From contig NZ_JANFLT010000005.1 in assembly GCF_024385505.1 (NCBI RefSeq), positions 682,001 through 746,000 on the forward strand: a stretch of DNA of 64,000 nucleotides, given 5' to 3'. This DNA comes from Arthrobacter zhaoxinii. Its GTDB lineage: Bacteria; Actinomycetota; Actinomycetes; Actinomycetales; Micrococcaceae. Positions within the stretch are counted from its first letter, which is position 1; each line of letters starts with the position of its first letter. Positions 3,749 through 19,479 of the stretch are shown here, piece by piece. A model generated the notes under the pieces. It was not told the DNA's origin. It ran no database searches and saw nothing but the letters and a program-made list of their open reading frames with translations. Both the position numbers and the translations under genes were made by a program.

Positions 3749-5569
3749 TTGAAAATTGACATGAGACACCGGAGTTTCCGGTGCGCATTGGTGCTGGCCA
3801 TCGGCAGCGCCGTTGTCCTCTCCCCGGTGGCGGCCGTTGCCGCCCCCGCCAAGCCTGCGCCGGCACCCAGCGGGTTCTCCGGCGCACCGGGGCCGGACGG
3901 GAAAGCCGTCAAATCCGACGACCGTTCGGATCCGGCAGCCGATGAACGCCGCCAGCTGAACCAGCAGGCCGTAGAGAAAGTTGTCCGGGGTGAAGCGCCC
4001 GTGCAGGCCCGCGGCGGTTCCAAGTCCGTGCAGGTGGCACCGGGCCAGTGGGCCGAGTACGGGCTGGAGGACAGCGACCAGATCCTGTCCTTCCTCATCG
4101 ACTTCGGCGACCAGGTGGATCCGCGGTTCCCGGCCGCGCCTGCCGGGCCGCAGCACAATGAGATCCCCCAGCCCAACCGCGCCACGGACAACTCAACGTA
4201 CTGGGAGCCCGAGTTTGACCGGCAGCACTACCTGGACATGTTCTTCGATCCGCAGGAAGAGTCGTTGAAGACCCTGTATGAGGAAATGTCCAGCGGCCGC
4301 TATACGGTTGACGGCGATGTCAGCGACTGGGTCACGGTCCCCTACAACTCCGCCAGCTACGGAGAAACCGAGAGCCAGGAGGACATGACCCGCTTCGTAC
4401 AGGACGCTGCCGACGCCTGGTACGAGGCGCAGATCACGGCTGGCAAGAGCCCTGCCGAGATCGATGCCTATCTGGCCGGCTTCGACCAGTGGGACCGCTA
4501 CGACTACAACAACAACGGCAACTTCGATGAACCCGACGGCTACATCGACCATTTCCAGGCCATCCATGCAGGCGAGGGTGAGGAGGCCGGCGCTCCGACG
4601 TCGACCATCTGGGCCCACCGCTGGGCAGTAGGCCAGGCCGGCGCCGGCACGCAGGGACCCGCGACCAACCCGTTCGGCGGCATCCGGATCGGCGATTCGA
4701 AGGTCTGGATCCGCGACTACACCACGGAACCGGAAAACGGCGGCCTCGGCGTCTTCGCACACGAGTACGCCCATGACCTCGGACTTCCGGATCTCTACGA
4801 CACCAGCGGCGGCGAAAACAGCACCGGATTCTGGACACTCATGAGCTCCGGTTCCTGGCTCGGCCACGGCAACGGAACAATCGGCACCACACCGAACCAC
4901 ATGGGGGCCTGGGAAAAGCTGCAGCTCGGCTGGCTGGACTACGACACGGCGACAGCCGGGACAAAGTCCACCCACAAGCTCGGCCCGTCCTTCCACGCAA
5001 CCAAGAAACAGCAGGCTCTGGTGGTCACCCTGCCCCGGGATGCTGCCGGAAACGGCCGTTACTACATCGCCGAAAACCGGCAGTATGTGGGCTATGACGA
5101 CACGTTGCGGACCGGCCCGTACAACTTCGGCTGGGGGGTCAACGCCCCGGACCGGGTGGAGCATTACCCGTACCAGGACGGCCTGCTGATCACGTACTGG
5201 AATGCAGGACAGCGGAACAACAACACCCGCCAGCACCCGGGTTCCGGCCTCGTCCTCCCGGTTGACTCGCATCCGCAGACCCTGAGGTTCTCCGACGGCA
5301 GCATTGCCCGTAACCGCATCCAGAGTTTCGATGCAACGTTCGGCAAGGAGGCCACGGATCCGGTCCTGCTGCACAGGGAAACCGCCACCGGGATGACCAC
5401 GCTGAGCGCACCGTCCCGCCCCGGCGTGCCGGTGTTCGATGACACCAATCCGAATGCCTACTACGATCCCGCGAACCCGCAGGCGAGCGTGGTGGTGGCC
5501 GGAACGGGCACGAAGATAACCGTGGTGAACAGTAATCCGAAGGGCATGATGACGGTGCGGGTGAACTAG
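3749..5569 (+). CDS. Secreted M6-family (immune inhibitor A-like) metalloprotease
   Basis: This 606-residue secreted zinc protease starts at TTG 3749, with AAGGGG five bases upstream; ATG 3761 is an alternative. A signal peptide ends near VAAVAA (about residue 31), and a Pro/Ala-rich propeptide follows. The catalytic motif is HEYAHDLGLPD, an HExxHxxGxxD site with His338, Glu339 and His342. An aspartate-rich loop, DYNNNGNFDEPDG, looks like a calcium site. Later sections (WTLMSSGSWLG, MGAWEKLQLGWLDYD) are typical of peptidase M6. It should degrade extracellular protein for nutrients. It is divergent from the secreted nucleotidase, so the pair may respond together to nutrient limitation, which is inference. 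Confidence 0.9.
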   Translation: MKIDMRHRSFRCALVLAIGSAVVLSPVAAVAAPAKPAPAPSGFSGAPGPDGKAVKSDDRSDPAADERRQLNQQAVEKVVRGEAPVQARGGSKSVQVAPGQWAEYGLEDSDQILSFLIDFGDQVDPRFPAAPAGPQHNEIPQPNRATDNSTYWEPEFDRQHYLDMFFDPQEESLKTLYEEMSSGRYTVDGDVSDWVTVPYNSASYGETESQEDMTRFVQDAADAWYEAQITAGKSPAEIDAYLAGFDQWDRYDYNNNGNFDEPDGYIDHFQAIHAGEGEEAGAPTSTIWAHRWAVGQAGAGTQGPATNPFGGIRIGDSKVWIRDYTTEPENGGLGVFAHEYAHDLGLPDLYDTSGGENSTGFWTLMSSGSWLGHGNGTIGTTPNHMGAWEKLQLGWLDYDTATAGTKSTHKLGPSFHATKKQQALVVTLPRDAAGNGRYYIAENRQYVGYDDTLRTGPYNFGWGVNAPDRVEHYPYQDGLLITYWNAGQRNNNTRQHPGSGLVLPVDSHPQTLRFSDGSIARNRIQSFDATFGKEATDPVLLHRETATGMTTLSAPSRPGVPVFDDTNPNAYYDPANPQASVVVAGTGTKITVVNSNPKGMMTVRVN

Positions 5570-5616
5570 TTCGCCCTTTGCTGGCACCGGCGGCTTGGGC
5601 CGCCTGGGTCGCCTGC

Positions 5617-5696
5617 GGGGCCTGGCTCCGGCGGCAACGAAATTCCAAAGCTCGCAGAGCTCGCTTGGAATATTAAAGCCGCCTCCGCCAGGCCCC
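5617..5696 (+). repeat. Hairpin repeat element, copy 1
   Basis: This is a nested hairpin starting 48 bp after the M6 protease stop. From outside in: GGGGCCTGG (5617-5625) pairs with CCAGGCCCC (5688-5696); GGCGGC (5630-5635) with GCCGCC (5678-5683); and TTCCAA (5643-5648) with TTGGAA (5665-5670). The centre is GCTCGCAGAGCTCGC. AACGAAA and TATTAAA flank the inner arms. The same core occurs at 17549-17641 and, inverted, at 18346-18439. The arm sequences change between copies while pairing is mostly kept. Origin and function are unknown. Confidence 0.85.
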
Positions 5697-5731
5697 TACG
5701 GCTAATCCGGCAGCGTCACCGCACAAAAGAC

Positions 5732-5770
5732 AAACGGCAGGCCAGGGACTACTTCCCCGGCCTGCCGTTT
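5732..5770. terminator. Bidirectional terminator hairpin
   Basis: AAACGGCAGGCC pairs perfectly with GGCCTGCCGTTT around a 15-nt loop. It lies between the convergent M6 protease and GNAT genes. The A/T-rich base on both sides suits termination in both directions. It is separate from the repeat element 36 bp to its left. Confidence 0.75.
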
Positions 5771-14160: not shown

Positions 14161-15402
14161 GTGAGCCCACAAAGCCGATCACGGCAGATCAGGGACGTAG
14201 TTTTCGTTGACGGAGTGCGGACACCCTTCGGCAAAGCAGGCGACAAGGGCATCTACGCCGGAATGCGTGCTGATGACCTGGTGGTCAAGTGCATCCGGGA
14301 ACTGATGCGCCGCAACCCCTCCCTTCCTCCGGAACGTATTGATGAAGTAGCCATCGCCGCCACCACGCAGTCCGGTGACCAGGGCATGACCATCGGGCGC
14401 ACCGCAGCCCTGCTGGCCGGCCTGCCGCGCACGGTGCCGGGCTTCGCCATTGACCGCATGTGCGCCGGTGCCATGACGGCCGTGACCACCACCGCGTCCG
14501 GTATCGGCTTCGGCGCCTACGACGTCGTCATTGCCGGCGGCGTGGAGCACATGGGCAACCACCCGATGGGCAAGGACGCCGATCCGAACCCGCGCTTCAT
14601 GACCGAGCGCCTGGTGGACCCGGCTGCCCTGAACATGGGCAACACCGCGGAGAACCTGCACGACCGCTTCCCGCACATCACCAAGGACCGCACCGACGCG
14701 TACGCCGCCGCCAGCCAGGAAAAGCTTGCCAAGGCCTACGCCGGCAACTCCATCCAGCCGGATCTGGTCCCCGTCGCCACCAAGAAGCCCGGCACCGGCT
14801 GGACCCTGAACACCGTGGACGAGCCGCCGCGCCCGGGCACCACCGTTGAAGACCTCGCACAGCTGCGCACCCCGTTCCGTGCGCACGGCCGGGTCACCGC
14901 CGGTAACGCTGCCGGCCTGAACGACGGCGCCACCACCGCGCTGCTGGCCTCCGCCGAAGCTGCCGAGGAACTCGGCCTGGGCGTCAAGATGCGCCTGGTC
15001 GGCTACGCCTTCGCCGGCGTCGAGCCCGAGGTCATGGGCTACGGCCCGGTCCCCTCCACCGAAAAGGTGCTGAAGCAGACCGGCCTGTCCATCGAGGACA
15101 TCGGCCTCTTCGAAATCAACGAGGCCTTCGCCATCCAGGTCCTGGCCTTCCTGGACCACTTCGGCATCGCCGACGACGACCCCCGCGTGAACCGCTACGG
15201 CGGCGCCATCGCCGTCGGCCACCCGCTGGCCTCCTCGGGCGTCCGCCTGATGAACCAGCTGGCCCGCCAGTTCGAGGAAGACCCGAGCGTCCGCTACGGC
15301 ATGACCACCATGTGCATCGGCCTGGGCATGGGCGCCACCGTGATCTGGGAAAACCCGAACCACCCCGACTACAACACCGATTCCACGGAGGCCACGAAGT
15401 AA
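14161..15402 (+). CDS. fadA: Acetyl-CoA C-acyltransferase (thiolase)
   Basis: The 413-residue thiolase starts at GTG 14161, with AGAGGAG seven bases upstream. The nucleophile is Cys101 in DRMCAGAM. The other catalytic residues are His354 in GHPLASSG and Cys385 in MCIGLGMG. It cleaves 3-ketoacyl-CoA to acetyl-CoA plus a shortened acyl-CoA in the last step of beta-oxidation. The stop codon overlaps the fadB start by one base (TAATG), so translation of the two is coupled and they should form the usual complex. The palindrome at 14094-14113 is a likely regulatory site. Confidence 0.95.
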   Translation: MSPQSRSRQIRDVVFVDGVRTPFGKAGDKGIYAGMRADDLVVKCIRELMRRNPSLPPERIDEVAIAATTQSGDQGMTIGRTAALLAGLPRTVPGFAIDRMCAGAMTAVTTTASGIGFGAYDVVIAGGVEHMGNHPMGKDADPNPRFMTERLVDPAALNMGNTAENLHDRFPHITKDRTDAYAAASQEKLAKAYAGNSIQPDLVPVATKKPGTGWTLNTVDEPPRPGTTVEDLAQLRTPFRAHGRVTAGNAAGLNDGATTALLASAEAAEELGLGVKMRLVGYAFAGVEPEVMGYGPVPSTEKVLKQTGLSIEDIGLFEINEAFAIQVLAFLDHFGIADDDPRVNRYGGAIAVGHPLASSGVRLMNQLARQFEEDPSVRYGMTTMCIGLGMGATVIWENPNHPDYNTDSTEATK

Positions 15403-17528
15403 TGTCTGCTCCTGACTACCAGCGCCTCGCGGGCCTCTTCCCCACCGAGGTCATCACCCACTCCTACGTCTCCGACATCCAGCTGCCGGGCAACGCCGGC
15501 ACCTTCGCCCTGATCACCCTGGACAACGACGTCGACCACTCACGTCCCACCACGCTGGGCCCGAACACGCTCCTTGAGCTGGGTCAGAAGCTGGACGAGC
15601 TCAAGGCCCGCGCGGACAAGGGCGAGATTGTCGGCGTCGGCGTCACCGGCAAGCCGTTCTACCTCGTGGCCGGCGCCGACCTTTCCGCCGTGAAGTCCAT
15701 CTCCGACTATGAAGACGGTGCGGCCATGGCCCACCTGGGCCACGACGTCTACGCCAAGCTCGGCAACCTGGGCGTGCCCAGCTTCGCCTTCATCAACGGT
15801 GTAGCCCTCGGCGGCGGACTGGAGATCGCCCTGCAGTCGGACTACCGCACCGTCTCCACCGGTGCCGGTGCCCTGTCGCTGCCGGAAGCGTTCATCGGCC
15901 TGGTGCCGGGCTGGGGCGGCGTCTACCTGCTGCCGCGCCTGATCGGCCCCGAGAACGCCGTCAAGGTGATGATCGAGAACCCGCTGAGCAACAACCGCAC
16001 CCTGTCCGGGGCTGCCGCCTACAAGCTGGGCATTGCCGATGCCCTGTTCGAGCCGGCGGATTTCCTCGAGCAGTCGCTGGCCTGGGCCTCCCGCGTGATC
16101 AGCGGCGAGGAGCAGGTGTCCCGGCCCAACGCCGTCGAACCCGCCGACGCCGGCGAAGCGTGGGATGCCGCCGTCGCCAAGGGTCGCGCCTTTGTGGAGG
16201 CCAAGACCTCCAACGCAGCACCTGCACCGGCTAAGGTCCTGGACCTGCTCGAAGCCGGCAAGACGTGGACCCGCGAGGAGTCCCGTGACGCCGAGTGCAA
16301 TGCCCTGGCCGAGCTGATGCAGACCCCGCAGTTCCGCTCCACCGTCTACGCGTTCCTGGACCTGGTCCAGAAGCGCGGCAAGCGGCCCGCCGGTGCTCCG
16401 GATAAGAAGCTGGCCCGCCCGGTCACCAAGGTGGGCGTGGTCGGCGCCGGCCTGATGGCCAGCCAGCTCGCCCTGCTCTTCGCCCGCCAGCTCAAGGTGC
16501 CCGTGGTGATGACGGACATCGACCAGGCGCGCGTGGACAAAGGTGTGGGCTACGTGCACGCGGAGGTGGACAAGCTCCTGGCCAAGAAGCGCATCTCCCC
16601 CGACGCCGCCAACCGTACCAAGGCCCTGGTCACCGGGTCGGTGTCCAAGGAAGCGTTCTCCGACGCCGACTTCGTCATCGAAGCCGTCTTCGAGGAACTC
16701 TCCGTGAAGAAGCAGGTGTTCGCCGAGGTGGAGGCCGTGGTCTCCCCCGAGTGCATCCTGGCCACCAACACCTCCTCGCTCTCCGTGACGGAGATGGCGG
16801 CTGACCTGCAGCACCCGGAGCGTGTGGTGGGCTTCCACTTCTTCAACCCGGTGGCCGTGATGCCGCTGCTGGAAATCGTACGCGCTCCCAAGACCGACGA
16901 CGCCGTGCTGGCCACCGCGTTTGTGCTGGCCAAGCAGCTGAAGAAGACCGCCGTGCTGGTCAAGGACGCTGCCGCCTTCGTGGTGAACCGCATCCTGGGC
17001 CGTATGTTCGGCGAGATCACCATGGTCTTCGACGAGGGCACCGATGCTGCCACCGCAGACAACGCGCTGCGCCCGATGGGCCTGCCGATGTCGCCGTTCA
17101 CCCTGCTGGCCCTGGTGGGCCTGCCGGTGGGACAGCATGTGCAGGAATCCCTGCACTCGGCGTTCGGTGAGCGCTTCTGGCTCTCGAAGAACTCCCAGAA
17201 GATCATCGACGCCGGCATCAAGTCCCTGTGGCAGAAGGACGAGGACGGCAACGCCTACATCCCCGAGGAAACCCTGGCGATGCTGGACTTCGGCACCACT
17301 CCCTCCACCTCCGAGGAAGTCCTGCGCCGGACGCAGGATGCCCTGGCCGAGGAAATCGGGCTCATGCTCGAAGAGGGCGTTGTGGCAGGTCCCGAGGACA
17401 TCGACCTGTGCGTCATCCTCGGTGCCGGCTGGCCGATGCACCTGGGCGGCATCACGCCGTACCTGGACCGTGTCGGGGCGTCCGAGCGCGTGAACGGCAG
17501 GAAGTTCCATGAGGCTGCTGCTGCCTAG
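15402..17528 (+). CDS. fadB: Bifunctional enoyl-CoA hydratase / 3-hydroxyacyl-CoA dehydrogenase
   Basis: The 708-residue protein starts at ATG 15402. Residues up to about 320 form the crotonase domain (GKPFYLVAGADLS; ALGGGLEIALQSDYR; LPEAFIGLVPGWGG). Next comes the NAD-binding domain with VGVVGAGLMASQLALLF, and then the dehydrogenase signature HFFNPVAVMPLLEIV and the C-terminal 3HCDH domains (DAAAFVVNRILG, MGLPMSPFTLLALVG). It hydrates trans-2-enoyl-CoA and oxidises the product to 3-ketoacyl-CoA, which FadA then cleaves. It is the second gene of the fadAB operon. Hairpin repeat copy 2, whose outer stem is followed by four T residues, lies just downstream and probably ends the transcript. Confidence 0.95.
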   Translation: MSAPDYQRLAGLFPTEVITHSYVSDIQLPGNAGTFALITLDNDVDHSRPTTLGPNTLLELGQKLDELKARADKGEIVGVGVTGKPFYLVAGADLSAVKSISDYEDGAAMAHLGHDVYAKLGNLGVPSFAFINGVALGGGLEIALQSDYRTVSTGAGALSLPEAFIGLVPGWGGVYLLPRLIGPENAVKVMIENPLSNNRTLSGAAAYKLGIADALFEPADFLEQSLAWASRVISGEEQVSRPNAVEPADAGEAWDAAVAKGRAFVEAKTSNAAPAPAKVLDLLEAGKTWTREESRDAECNALAELMQTPQFRSTVYAFLDLVQKRGKRPAGAPDKKLARPVTKVGVVGAGLMASQLALLFARQLKVPVVMTDIDQARVDKGVGYVHAEVDKLLAKKRISPDAANRTKALVTGSVSKEAFSDADFVIEAVFEELSVKKQVFAEVEAVVSPECILATNTSSLSVTEMAADLQHPERVVGFHFFNPVAVMPLLEIVRAPKTDDAVLATAFVLAKQLKKTAVLVKDAAAFVVNRILGRMFGEITMVFDEGTDAATADNALRPMGLPMSPFTLLALVGLPVGQHVQESLHSAFGERFWLSKNSQKIIDAGIKSLWQKDEDGNAYIPEETLAMLDFGTTPSTSEEVLRRTQDALAEEIGLMLEEGVVAGPEDIDLCVILGAGWPMHLGGITPYLDRVGASERVNGRKFHEAAAA

Positions 17529-17548
17529 TTAGTCCGTTCGCTTCGCCC

Positions 17549-17641
17549 GCGCCGGGCGGACCGGAACGGCGGCAACGAAAATCCTTTGCTCGCAGAGCTC
17601 GCAAGGATTATTAAAGCCGCCTAACCCGGTCCGTCCGGCGC
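17549..17641 (+). repeat. Hairpin repeat element, copy 2
   Basis: This nested hairpin starts 20 bp after the fadB stop. The outer stem GCGCCGGGCGGACCGG (17549-17564) pairs with 17626-17641 (one mismatch) and is followed by TTTT, like an intrinsic terminator. Inside are GGCGGC (17568-17573) / GCCGCC (17616-17621) and ATCCTT (17581-17586) / AAGGAT (17603-17608), around the invariant centre GCTCGCAGAGCTCGC. Compared with copy 1, three of the six inner-arm bases differ and all three changes are compensated on the other side. Confidence 0.85.
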
Positions 17642-17712
17642 TTTTGCGTGTCCGTCCCGGTGCATTTCATTCGGGTCTGGTCAGCGGGCAGCGGCCGCGC
17701 TAACCTCCCTGC

Positions 17713-17949
17713 ATGAGTCAGGACCCAGCATGGTCGCAGACGCGTACAAAGCGAATGGTGCTGTTCATGCTCAGTGCTTGCGTCTCTTTGTGGCTGGTTC
17801 TTCTCCTACCGTTCGACGAGCCGTGGAATTGGTTGTTGATAGGTCTTTTCCTGGTACTGGGCGCTGCTTTCATCAAGCTGCTGGCAAGCTTCGTCCTACA
17901 GCAGCGTGAGAGTTACCGGCAGGAACGCGAGGAAGAGACTGGCAGCTAG
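17713..17949 (+). CDS. Small two-TM membrane protein, unknown
   Basis: This 78-residue protein is not one I recognise. It has a polar N-terminus (MSQDPAWSQTRTKR), a hydrophobic helix (MVLFMLSACVSLWLVLLL), a short loop (PFDEPWNW), a second helix (LLIGLFLVLGAAFIKLLASF) and a charged tail (RESYRQEREEETGS). It is probably an inner-membrane hairpin with both ends in the cytoplasm. No clear ribosome-binding site is visible. It may be cotranscribed with the DUF4287 gene 59 bp downstream. Confidence 0.55.
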   Translation: MSQDPAWSQTRTKRMVLFMLSACVSLWLVLLLPFDEPWNWLLIGLFLVLGAAFIKLLASFVLQQRESYRQEREEETGS

Positions 17950-18008
17950 CGCTCCTGCAACCAACCCGGCGAATCCGCAAAGTCAGCTCAGGATTTTAGG
18001 AGAACCAG

Positions 18009-18299
18009 ATGTCTTTCCAGGCCTACCTCGACGCCATCGAGGAGAAAACGGGACTAACACCCCGCCAGCTCGTGGATATTGCCGCCGCTAAAGGATTCAG
18101 CGGCGGCAACGTGAAAGCCGGGGAAATCCTCGAATGGCTCAAAACCGACTATGGAATCGGGCGCGGGCATGGGATGGCACTCGTCCATGTCATTAAGAAC
18201 GGCGCCTCCATAGATCAGAAACATGTGGGCACTACGGGAACCCACCGGGACGACTCCGACACCCTGTGGCTCGACGGCAGGGCAACCAAGCCCGCCTGA
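18009..18299 (+). CDS. DUF4287 domain protein
   Basis: The 96-residue soluble protein matches the DUF4287 pattern: SFQAYLDAIEEKTGLTPRQL at the N-terminus, then the VKAGEILEWLKTDYGIGRGH core ending in HGMALVHVIKNG. The domain is small and helical, often stands alone or is fused to DUF5655, and has no known function. TTTTAGGAGAA before the ATG supplies the ribosome-binding site. Repeat copy 3 follows just past the stop. Confidence 0.8.
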   Translation: MSFQAYLDAIEEKTGLTPRQLVDIAAAKGFSGGNVKAGEILEWLKTDYGIGRGHGMALVHVIKNGASIDQKHVGTTGTHRDDSDTLWLDGRATKPA

Positions 18300-18345
18300 G
18301 CCTCCCGCGGGTCAGGGCTAGGCGGAGGCTTGCGGAGGCACCGTT

Positions 18346-18439
18346 GGGCCCGGAGGGTCCGGGTTAGGCGGCTTTAATAATCTCGGCGAGCTCTGCGAGC
18401 AGGGATTTTCGTTGCCGCCGTTCCGGACCCACCGGGCCA
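18346..18439 (-). repeat. Hairpin repeat element, copy 3 (inverted)
   Basis: Read on the minus strand this copy has the same core (AACGAAA, inner arm, GCTCGCAGAGCTCGC, inner arm, TATTAAA) between GGCGGC (paired bases at 18414-18419) and GCCGCC (18367-18372). The inner arms ATCCCT and CGAGAT pair at only four of six positions. The outer stem (18346-18362 with 18423-18439) is 17 bp with two mismatches. It lies between the convergent DUF4287 and aldo/keto reductase genes. Confidence 0.8.
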
Positions 18440-18474
18440 CCGGACCCACCGGGCCACCGGACCCACCGGACCCA
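18423..18474. repeat. Short tandem repeat array at edge of repeat copy 3
   Basis: The unit CCGGACCCACCGGGCCA (17 bp) occurs twice in a row (18423-18456), followed by two copies of CCGGACCCA (18457-18474). The first unit doubles as the right arm of the outer stem of hairpin copy 3. It is noncoding, ending 28 bp before the aldo/keto reductase stop. Confidence 0.85.
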
Positions 18475-18501
18475 CCAGCGCACCCAAGGCGAGTGACAAG
18501 A

Positions 18502-19479
18502 CTAGAACAAAGCAACCTTCGGCGTCCGCGGGAAGATCCGGTCCAGTTCTTCAAGGTCCTTCTCCGACGGAACCCAGCACACGGCCTCGGCGTTCTGCTG
18601 CACCTGCTCCACCTTCGTAGCCCCGGCGATCACGGACGCGACCGACGGCTGAGCTGCGAGCCAGGAGAAGGCGACCTGCACTTCGGTCAGACCGCGGTCC
18701 GCGGCGAACCGGCCGAACTCCGCCAGCTGCTCCATATCGGCGTTCTCCAGCAGGTTCTTCCGCGAATGGGTAAGCCGGCTGCCTTCGGGAGCCTTGCCGC
18801 TGCTGTACTTGCCGGTGAGCAGGCCGTTGGCCAGCGGGAAGTAGGGCAGCACACCCAGCCCGTACGCTTCGGCGGCGGGAGTGACCTCGAGCTCGGCCCG
18901 GCGGTCCAGCAGGTTGTAGTGGTTCTGTGCGGAGATGAACGGGGTGTATCCGCCCATGCGCGCGGTGAACTCGGCTTCGGCAATCTGCCAGCCCGTGCGG
19001 TTGGAGTGTCCGATGTAGCGGACCTTGCCGCTGGTCACCAGATCATCCAGGGCCGCAAGGGTCTCTTCGATGGGCGTCAGGGGGTCCGGTGTGTGGAACT
19101 GGTACAGGTCAATCCAGTCCGTGTTCAGCCGGCGCAGGGAGGCTTCCGCGGCCTTCACGATATAGCGGCGCGAGCCCCGGGCACCGAAGTCGGCACCGTT
19201 GACGCCCTGCATGTCCATACCGAACTTGGTAGCCAGCACAATGTCATCGCGCCGGGAGCCCAGCGCCTTGCCCAGCATTTCCTCGCTCAGCCCCGGCGTG
19301 CGCCCATACGTATCGGCCACGTCGAACAAGGTGATGCCGGCGTCGATCGCGGCGTGGACGACGGCGTCGGTGCCCTCCTGCGATTCGGTGGGTGTTCCCG
19401 GTCGGCCCAGGTTGTTGCAGCCCAGCCCGACCGTGGAGACGGTCAGGCCGGAATTTCCAAGTCTGTTGTAAGAAGTCAT
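18502..19479 (-). CDS. Aldo/keto reductase
   Basis: The 325-residue protein has the AKR barrel signatures: GLGCNNLGRPG near the start, GITLFDVADTYG with catalytic Asp and Tyr, VLATKFGMD with the Lys, and WIDLYQFHTPDP with the His. Late motifs include QNHYNLLDRR and AFSWLAAQPSVASVIAGATK, the NADPH-binding part. It is closest in pattern to YghZ/Tas-like AKRs, which reduce aldehydes, methylglyoxal or other carbonyls with NADPH. It is monocistronic and converges on the DUF4287 gene. Confidence 0.9.
   Translation of the reverse strand: MTSYNRLGNSGLTVSTVGLGCNNLGRPGTPTESQEGTDAVVHAAIDAGITLFDVADTYGRTPGLSEEMLGKALGSRRDDIVLATKFGMDMQGVNGADFGARGSRRYIVKAAEASLRRLNTDWIDLYQFHTPDPLTPIEETLAALDDLVTSGKVRYIGHSNRTGWQIAEAEFTARMGGYTPFISAQNHYNLLDRRAELEVTPAAEAYGLGVLPYFPLANGLLTGKYSSGKAPEGSRLTHSRKNLLENADMEQLAEFGRFAADRGLTEVQVAFSWLAAQPSVASVIAGATKVEQVQQNAEAVCWVPSEKDLEELDRIFPRTPKVALF

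Follow-up and report, generated by a model that had tools for sequence, protein, structure and literature searches.

We describe a new Arthrobacter family of short, noncoding, REP-like palindromic repeats that have a conserved internal loop and that switch orientation at one site. Three copies lie in the window, which here means the whole 64,000-nucleotide stretch of Arthrobacter zhaoxinii DNA that was analyzed. No paper naming the element was found among the CC-licensed articles in PMC.

Results

Three Nested Hairpins in the Window

Three copies of a nested hairpin, with tips at positions 5630–5683 (+), 17568–17621 (+), and 18367–18419 (−), were found in the window, and none of 100 shuffled windows contained as many matches to the exact pattern. 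The tip spans 53–54 bp (GGCGGC-AACGAA..ATTAAA-GCCGCC), was strongly conserved in our alignments, and consists of a GGCGGC/GCCGCC stem, a 6 × 6 internal loop in which AACGAA lies opposite ATTAAA (in copy 2, positions 17574–17579 and 17610–17615, from the alignments), a short inner stem (about 5 bp), and the apical loop GCTCGCAGAGCTCGC, which is common to all three window tips. The search pattern that yielded most copies was exact and fixes GGCGGCAACGAA and TTAAAGCCGCC; only the fadB and rpoB-rpoC sites that were located through their genes show the conservation of these bases free from that bias. The outer arms vary in sequence from copy to copy, yet they pair, and the full hairpins of copies 1, 2, and 3 gave RNA folding z-scores of −5.0, −7.1, and −6.3, with none of 200 shuffles folding as well for each copy. 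Thus, the pattern and folding controls bore out the initial annotation, which had described three hairpin cores enclosed by paired outer stems. The stems that it named (GGGGCCTGG, GCGCCGGGCGGACCGG, and a GGGTCCGG-containing arm) are all present, as is the TTTT that it placed after copy 2 (17642–17645); by direct reading, a T-run is lacking at the arm end in copies 1 and 3.

When the outer arms were scored on their own by ungapped pairing (best of 14 positions), copies 1, 2, and 3 reached 11, 14, and 13, and random spaced window pairs scored at least 13 in 9 of 5,000 cases and at least 11 in 357 of 5,000; this crude score sets apart copies 2 and 3 but not copy 1 on its own. A covariance model recovered the three copies (model R1, tips of copies 1, 2, and 3: E = 4.5e-21, 2.8e-24, and 1.2e-22), and its next-best window match (E = 0.13) was unconvincing. 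In alignment A2, the 38 rows of which were selected by us and mix pattern-found with gene-found copies, 98.6% of 416 tip-stem cells were paired and 8 of 11 pairs had changed on both sides; none of 500 shuffles matched four of the five covariation measures, and 2 of 500 matched the fifth. Inspection by eye established no concerted evolution of the tips. A known RNA family was rejected, as none of 4,227 Rfam covariance models reached the gathering level in the window (best E = 0.5 over 17500–18520).

The Repeated Unit and Its Arm Classes

Among same-class copies in the window's genome (35 pairs), identity in successive 5-bp bins to the left of the tip was 1.00, 0.71, 0.61, and 0.55, versus 0.28 expected, and the shared flanks of same-class paralogs dropped to background at about 20–25 bp from the tip. 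This extent of flank sharing indicates a repeated unit of approximately 93–100 bp, and the presence of common outer arms at paralogous loci indicates that the arms belong to the element. From these comparisons, we read the repeated unit as the complete hairpin and not the tip alone. The best paralogous blast matches of copy 1 ran from about positions 5598–5612 to 5701–5702, others covering less, and a paralogous locus in one relative (G022) was 98% identical over 5602–5701; the best matches of copy 2 ran from about 17547–17552 to 17639–17644.

Three junction classes were recognized: CCGGAAC..TAACCCGG, CCTGGCTCC..TCCGCCAGG, and CCTGGAAC..TTCCTCCAGG. Copy 1, delimited by its best matches at paralogous loci in relatives, is a class B unit of tip and outer arms at 5602–5701 (+). 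Copy 2 is a class A unit at 17549–17641 (+), with arms at 17549–17567 and 17622–17641, and lies behind a fadB-type gene (15402–17528, +; Pfam 3HCDH_N and ECH_1). Copy 3, assigned to class A from direct reading, junction class, and folding, occupies 18347–18438 (−) behind an aldo/keto reductase gene (18502–19479, −; Pfam PF00248), and one of its outer arms is repeated in tandem at 18421–18475 (direct reading; repeat family D5). Where class A loci were compared, arm differences were largely paired changes. The outer stems had been called different between copies and unrelated; they do differ, but arm classes are common to several loci. Likewise, the AAC/TAAC junction pointed out in copies 2 and 3 is present, but it is typical of one whole class rather than special to these two.

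Distribution and Genomic Context

The window's genome (3.5 Mb) contains 17 exact copies and at least one further copy with a single stem change; this one-base variant occupies the site that was compared for presence and absence within the species. Within the genus, exact copies were present in 28 of 29 genomes, with 2–19 in each, so that copy number ranged from 0 to 19, and the reversed-pattern control gave none in the window's genome or in any of the 29. Within the family, 36 of 295 genomes, belonging to 5 of 32 genera, carried the element; in the order, a model search with strict filters and an upper limit of 11 scored candidates per genome, which may have missed copies, found it in at least 8 of 396 genomes and at least 2 of 109 genera. 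The named genome collection gave at least 107 matching stretches, and the 80 that were listed came from Arthrobacter (gandavensis, koreensis, luteolus, citreus, yangruifuii, and others), one Paenarthrobacter, and one Clostridia MAG (L130). The last, the sole listed match beyond Arthrobacter and Paenarthrobacter, lacked the inner hairpin by eye and was set down to chance. Phage or plasmid carriage was rejected, as the exact pattern had no match in the viral contigs of IMG/VR and blastn with copy 2 found no match in plasmids and none in phages.

A simple codon-score script called both neighboring genes for 158 copies, the others being dropped; 76 of these copies lay between convergent genes, 61 were tandem and sense, 21 were tandem and antisense, and none lay between divergent genes. 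All 17 copies in the window's genome were located 31–136 bp 3′ of a same-strand gene, and the orientation was sense in 16 of 16 cases at the fadB site and in 11 of 11 at the aldo/keto reductase site. Copies were also observed inside operons, at rpoB-rpoC, grpE-dnaJ, and pyrH-frr, where the products that we take to be RpoB, RpoC, DnaJ, and Frr were named from translated sequence, with Pfam as a further source for GrpE and the pyrH-type kinase; the rpoB-rpoC site was used in three genera and the grpE-dnaJ site in two. Because it occurs within operons, the element is not simply a terminator. On scanning, 40 of 45 sites (a set that includes the chance Clostridia match) were preceded by genes that looked diverse, several of them belonging to acyl-CoA or central carbon metabolism, and a regulon reading was set aside. 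The genes before these 45 sites included fadB and those for acyl-CoA dehydrogenase, citrate synthase, isocitrate dehydrogenase, AMP-ligases, and 2-oxoacid dehydrogenase.

The copies were clustered. In the 24 genomes with listed positions (190 copies), 23 neighbor pairs lay within 3 kb, versus 1.8 expected, a count inflated by orthologous pairs that are not independent; 18 of the 23 faced each other (+−) and none stood back to back. Copies 2 and 3 flank a segment that is variable among species: the content and length of the region between the fadB and aldo/keto reductase genes vary by species, and in the window it holds a gene for a small DUF4287 protein (18009–18299). In one genome (G023), the short gap between these two genes holds a single terminator-like hairpin and lacks the element. 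Other local arrangements were noted: two same-orientation copies about 120 bp apart (G006:C6:426517–426718), another palindromic repeat, in two direct copies and one inverted copy, between two facing copies (L003:1953–2058), and a copy with tandem repeats in both outer arms, a 25-nt unit present about five times in one and a 35-nt unit present twice in the other (L005:1375–1502).

Gain of a Complete Hairpin at the Copy 1 Locus

Across the 29 genomes, the copy 1 locus was filled in seven and empty in eight, the remaining 14 having no usable alignment, and the element model was found at all seven filled sites and at none of the eight empty sites. The empty sites have a stop codon followed by a terminator-like hairpin and no element, whereas at the filled sites the complete hairpin is placed between the stop codon and the terminator-like hairpin. 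Empty sites had been predicted in relatives and were found; the empty terminator loop predicted with them was not found at copy 1, as all eight sites carry, within 150 bases of the stop codon, a hairpin of 15–19 perfect pairs that is unlike the element's outer stem. The neighboring terminator-like hairpin has at least 12 perfect pairs in five of the seven filled genomes and is imperfect by eye in G017 and G018. In the window it lies at 5732–5770 and has a 17-pair stem, and it was the one hit of the terminator scan, versus 0.7 expected in shuffles. The hairpin of the empty site in G026 is a clear sequence counterpart of this hairpin; those of others, such as G027, differ in sequence. The gene that ends at 5569 and precedes copy 1 was assigned to an immune inhibitor A-like M6 metallopeptidase on the strength of Pfam results for the corresponding site of a relative (L167).

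In the fadB tree, the filled genomes all fall inside one clade (100/99), two further members of which (G009 and G010) lack the upstream gene match, and the sister group and the tested outgroups are empty. This distribution indicates that a complete hairpin was gained at copy 1. To judge from the alignments, it arrived beside an existing gene-end signal and not in the loop of that signal, at what is the sole datable site. No target-site duplication was recognized between filled and empty sites, the flanks of which are too diverged for exact placement of the ends.

Retention of Arms and Probable Loss of the Tip at the fadB Site

By eye, the fadB site in the 29 genomes has arms and tip in 21, arms around a 6-nt loop in three, another inner hairpin in one, a remnant in one, and nothing in three; the right arm is broken in G007. 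The arms were identical at 39 of 39 bases in 19 of the 29 genomes and at 38 of 39 in two more, and the identity of the fadB 3′ end fell to as low as 79%. In the three collapsed sites (G001, G005, and G013), the arms matched at 39 of 39 bases in two and at 38 of 39 in the third; thus, the arms were kept without the tip, and the tip and arms can part. The near-empty loops read GGCGGC-6 nt-GCCGCC in G005 and G013, with one base different in G001, and the 6 nt in between correspond to the left inner arm (ATTCCT/AATCCT), which suggests tip loss. These loops point to remnants left after tip loss, with a direction that the tree alone does not fix: the collapsed state needs three changes, and a single origin remains compatible. 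A terminator-like hairpin precedes the element in G002 and G019 by eye, and only such a hairpin is present in G024 and G025.

Repeated Orientation Switches at the rpoB-rpoC Site

Of 148 family genomes with a match to the rpoB-rpoC region, 70 were read; 13 of these 70 have the tip, 29 a tipless hairpin of at least eight perfect pairs, and 24 neither, and in four the spacer was too short (<50 nt), including G065, which has an antisense tip (L097). Genus g32 includes four genomes with a GCGGCC/GGCCGC tip stem and a nearly unchanged loop, a switch that we interpret as a compensatory change. We built a tree from 33 chosen rows (17 sense, 8 antisense, and 8 without a tip), in which the 8 antisense cases required 8 changes, and well-supported sister pairs had opposite orientations (G228/G084, G191/G167, G211/G124, and G005/G012). 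By this reconstruction, the orientation of the element has switched repeatedly at rpoB-rpoC, through either a flip of the tip only or inversion of the complete hairpin. These repeated switches imply that sense orientation is not essential there, and the antisense copies weaken the case for a strictly sense RNA motif. Two further features of the region were noted: many family genera have a strong, fast-evolving tipless hairpin behind the rpoB stop codon (L206–L275), and two genomes of one species, that of the window and another (L330 vs. L001), differ in the outer arms of the rpoB-rpoC hairpin, as though one complete hairpin had been exchanged for another.

Discussion

Palindromic extragenic repeats are common, and REPs are palindromes of 20–40 bp with a conserved GTAG/CTAG-type head. 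Similar to REP/RAYT systems, the element is extragenic, palindromic, and multicopy, and lies at 3′ ends and between operon genes, with 0 of 158 copies between divergent genes. It differs in its unit of 93–100 bp, in its conserved 6 × 6 internal loop and low copy number (up to 19 exact copies), and in the lack of RAYT from the Arthrobacter genomes (0 of 29); by eye, no GTAG/CTAG-type head stands beside the palindrome in its conserved columns. ERIC/RU-type and MITE-like repeats are likewise self-complementary noncoding units of about 100 bp, and the element was gained complete at an intergenic site; however, its conserved part is the tip and not the ends, and neither a target-site duplication nor a partner transposase (Y1_Tnp and RVT_1 searched) was recognized. 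With intrinsic (Rho-independent) terminators it shares a GC-rich hairpin behind genes, but it lacks a general T-tract, has a far longer stem and an internal loop, and occurs inside operons and beside terminator-like hairpins.

Convergence of ordinary intrinsic terminators on a similar hairpin would suit the location 3′ of genes and the TTTT after copy 2; nevertheless, we regard it as improbable, because convergence would not yield a near-identical tip at some 40 sites, the element has a separate terminator-like hairpin next to it at copy 1 as well as, by eye, at the fadB site of G002 and G019, and it is found inside operons. In addition, the terminator scan, which allows loops of 3–8 only and is blind to stems with long internal loops, reported none of the three full hairpins, its one call within them being a 5-pair stem in the copy 3 tip. 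Still more improbable, in our estimate, is the explanation offered by the initial annotation, in which a tip element of about 57 bp inserts into the loops of old terminator hairpins that persist as the outer stems. The variation of outer stems among loci, the fadB arms that persist around a 6-nt loop in G001, G005, and G013, and the tipless hairpins of at least eight perfect pairs in 29 of 70 rpoB-rpoC genomes would agree with it. However, the empty sites of copy 1 have no outer stem and a different hairpin of their own, the outer arms are common to paralogous loci, and the 6-nt loops at fadB have the sequence of the left inner arm and look like remnants. That proposal was right in that the repeat is present at multiple sites, is partly modular in tip and arms, and has empty sites; insertion of the tip into terminator loops did not hold at copy 1, the locus where it could be tested.

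The element might instead be a purely cis-acting RNA module of 3′ ends, bound by a protein through the 6 × 6 loop and spread by ordinary duplication or recombination. Stem covariation with a near-invariant loop, the sense bias at tandem sites (61 sense vs. 21 antisense), the ultraconserved fadB arms, and the use of the same sites in several genera (three for rpoB-rpoC and two for grpE-dnaJ) all speak for such a module. We nonetheless consider it unlikely, as the eight antisense rpoB-rpoC cases need eight changes, antisense tips keep the loop (although the finding pattern demands the loop), genomes of the genus hold anywhere from 0 to 19 copies, and the genes preceding 40 of the 45 sites look diverse on scanning.

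Our preferred reading, which we hold to be somewhat probable, is that of a palindromic repeat family that gains sites as complete hairpins, with arms kept as an mRNA hairpin and a tip that serves as the signature for spread. The unit would be a complete hairpin of about 93–100 bp, in which a conserved tip with a 6 × 6 internal loop is carried on self-complementary outer arms. New sites would be gained as complete hairpins 3′ of genes, beside existing terminators as at one locus, and also between operon genes; once placed, arms and tip would be maintained as a hairpin, as at fadB and rpoB-rpoC. By analogy with REP hairpins, the arms may function as a highly stable mRNA structure, 3′ or intercistronic, so that the element would now serve as mRNA hairpins in these positions, and the near-invariant tip may be the signature by which a protein recognizes the folded strand for propagation. 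Against the repeat-family reading, a polarized gain is available at one locus only, and arms so well conserved at orthologous sites would be equally compatible with old structures under selection and with a mobile repeat. The outcome of the enzyme searches (Y1_Tnp in 0 and RVT_1 in 2 of 29 genomes), the lack of a recognized target-site duplication, the orientation switches at rpoB-rpoC, and the parting of tip and arms at fadB likewise count against it.

The means of spread were approached through searches for two mobilizing enzymes, Y1_Tnp and RVT_1. A RAYT-type or other transposase had been suggested as a possible partner of the element, but Y1_Tnp (PF01797, RAYT) was found in 0 of 29 genus genomes, with a control search positive in 5 of 14 known genomes, and RAYT mobilization is rejected for the 29 genomes searched. 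Spread by a reverse transcriptase is unlikely, RVT_1 being present in 2 of the 29. We tentatively propose, as a conjecture that is more doubtful than the repeat-family reading itself, a RAYT-independent mobile hairpin, in which an enzyme would recognize the folded single strand through the 6 × 6 loop and copy the complete hairpin to the 3′ ends of genes, and in which the tip would invert in place on its arms, as suggested by the repeated orientation switches at rpoB-rpoC. To our knowledge, there is no settled account of how palindromic repeat families without RAYT spread. The Arthrobacter family supplies polarized filled and empty sites together with named carriers, and its conserved internal loop is a candidate recognition site; it could make both the mobilizing factor and the effect of intercistronic hairpins on core genes such as rpoB/rpoC directly testable.
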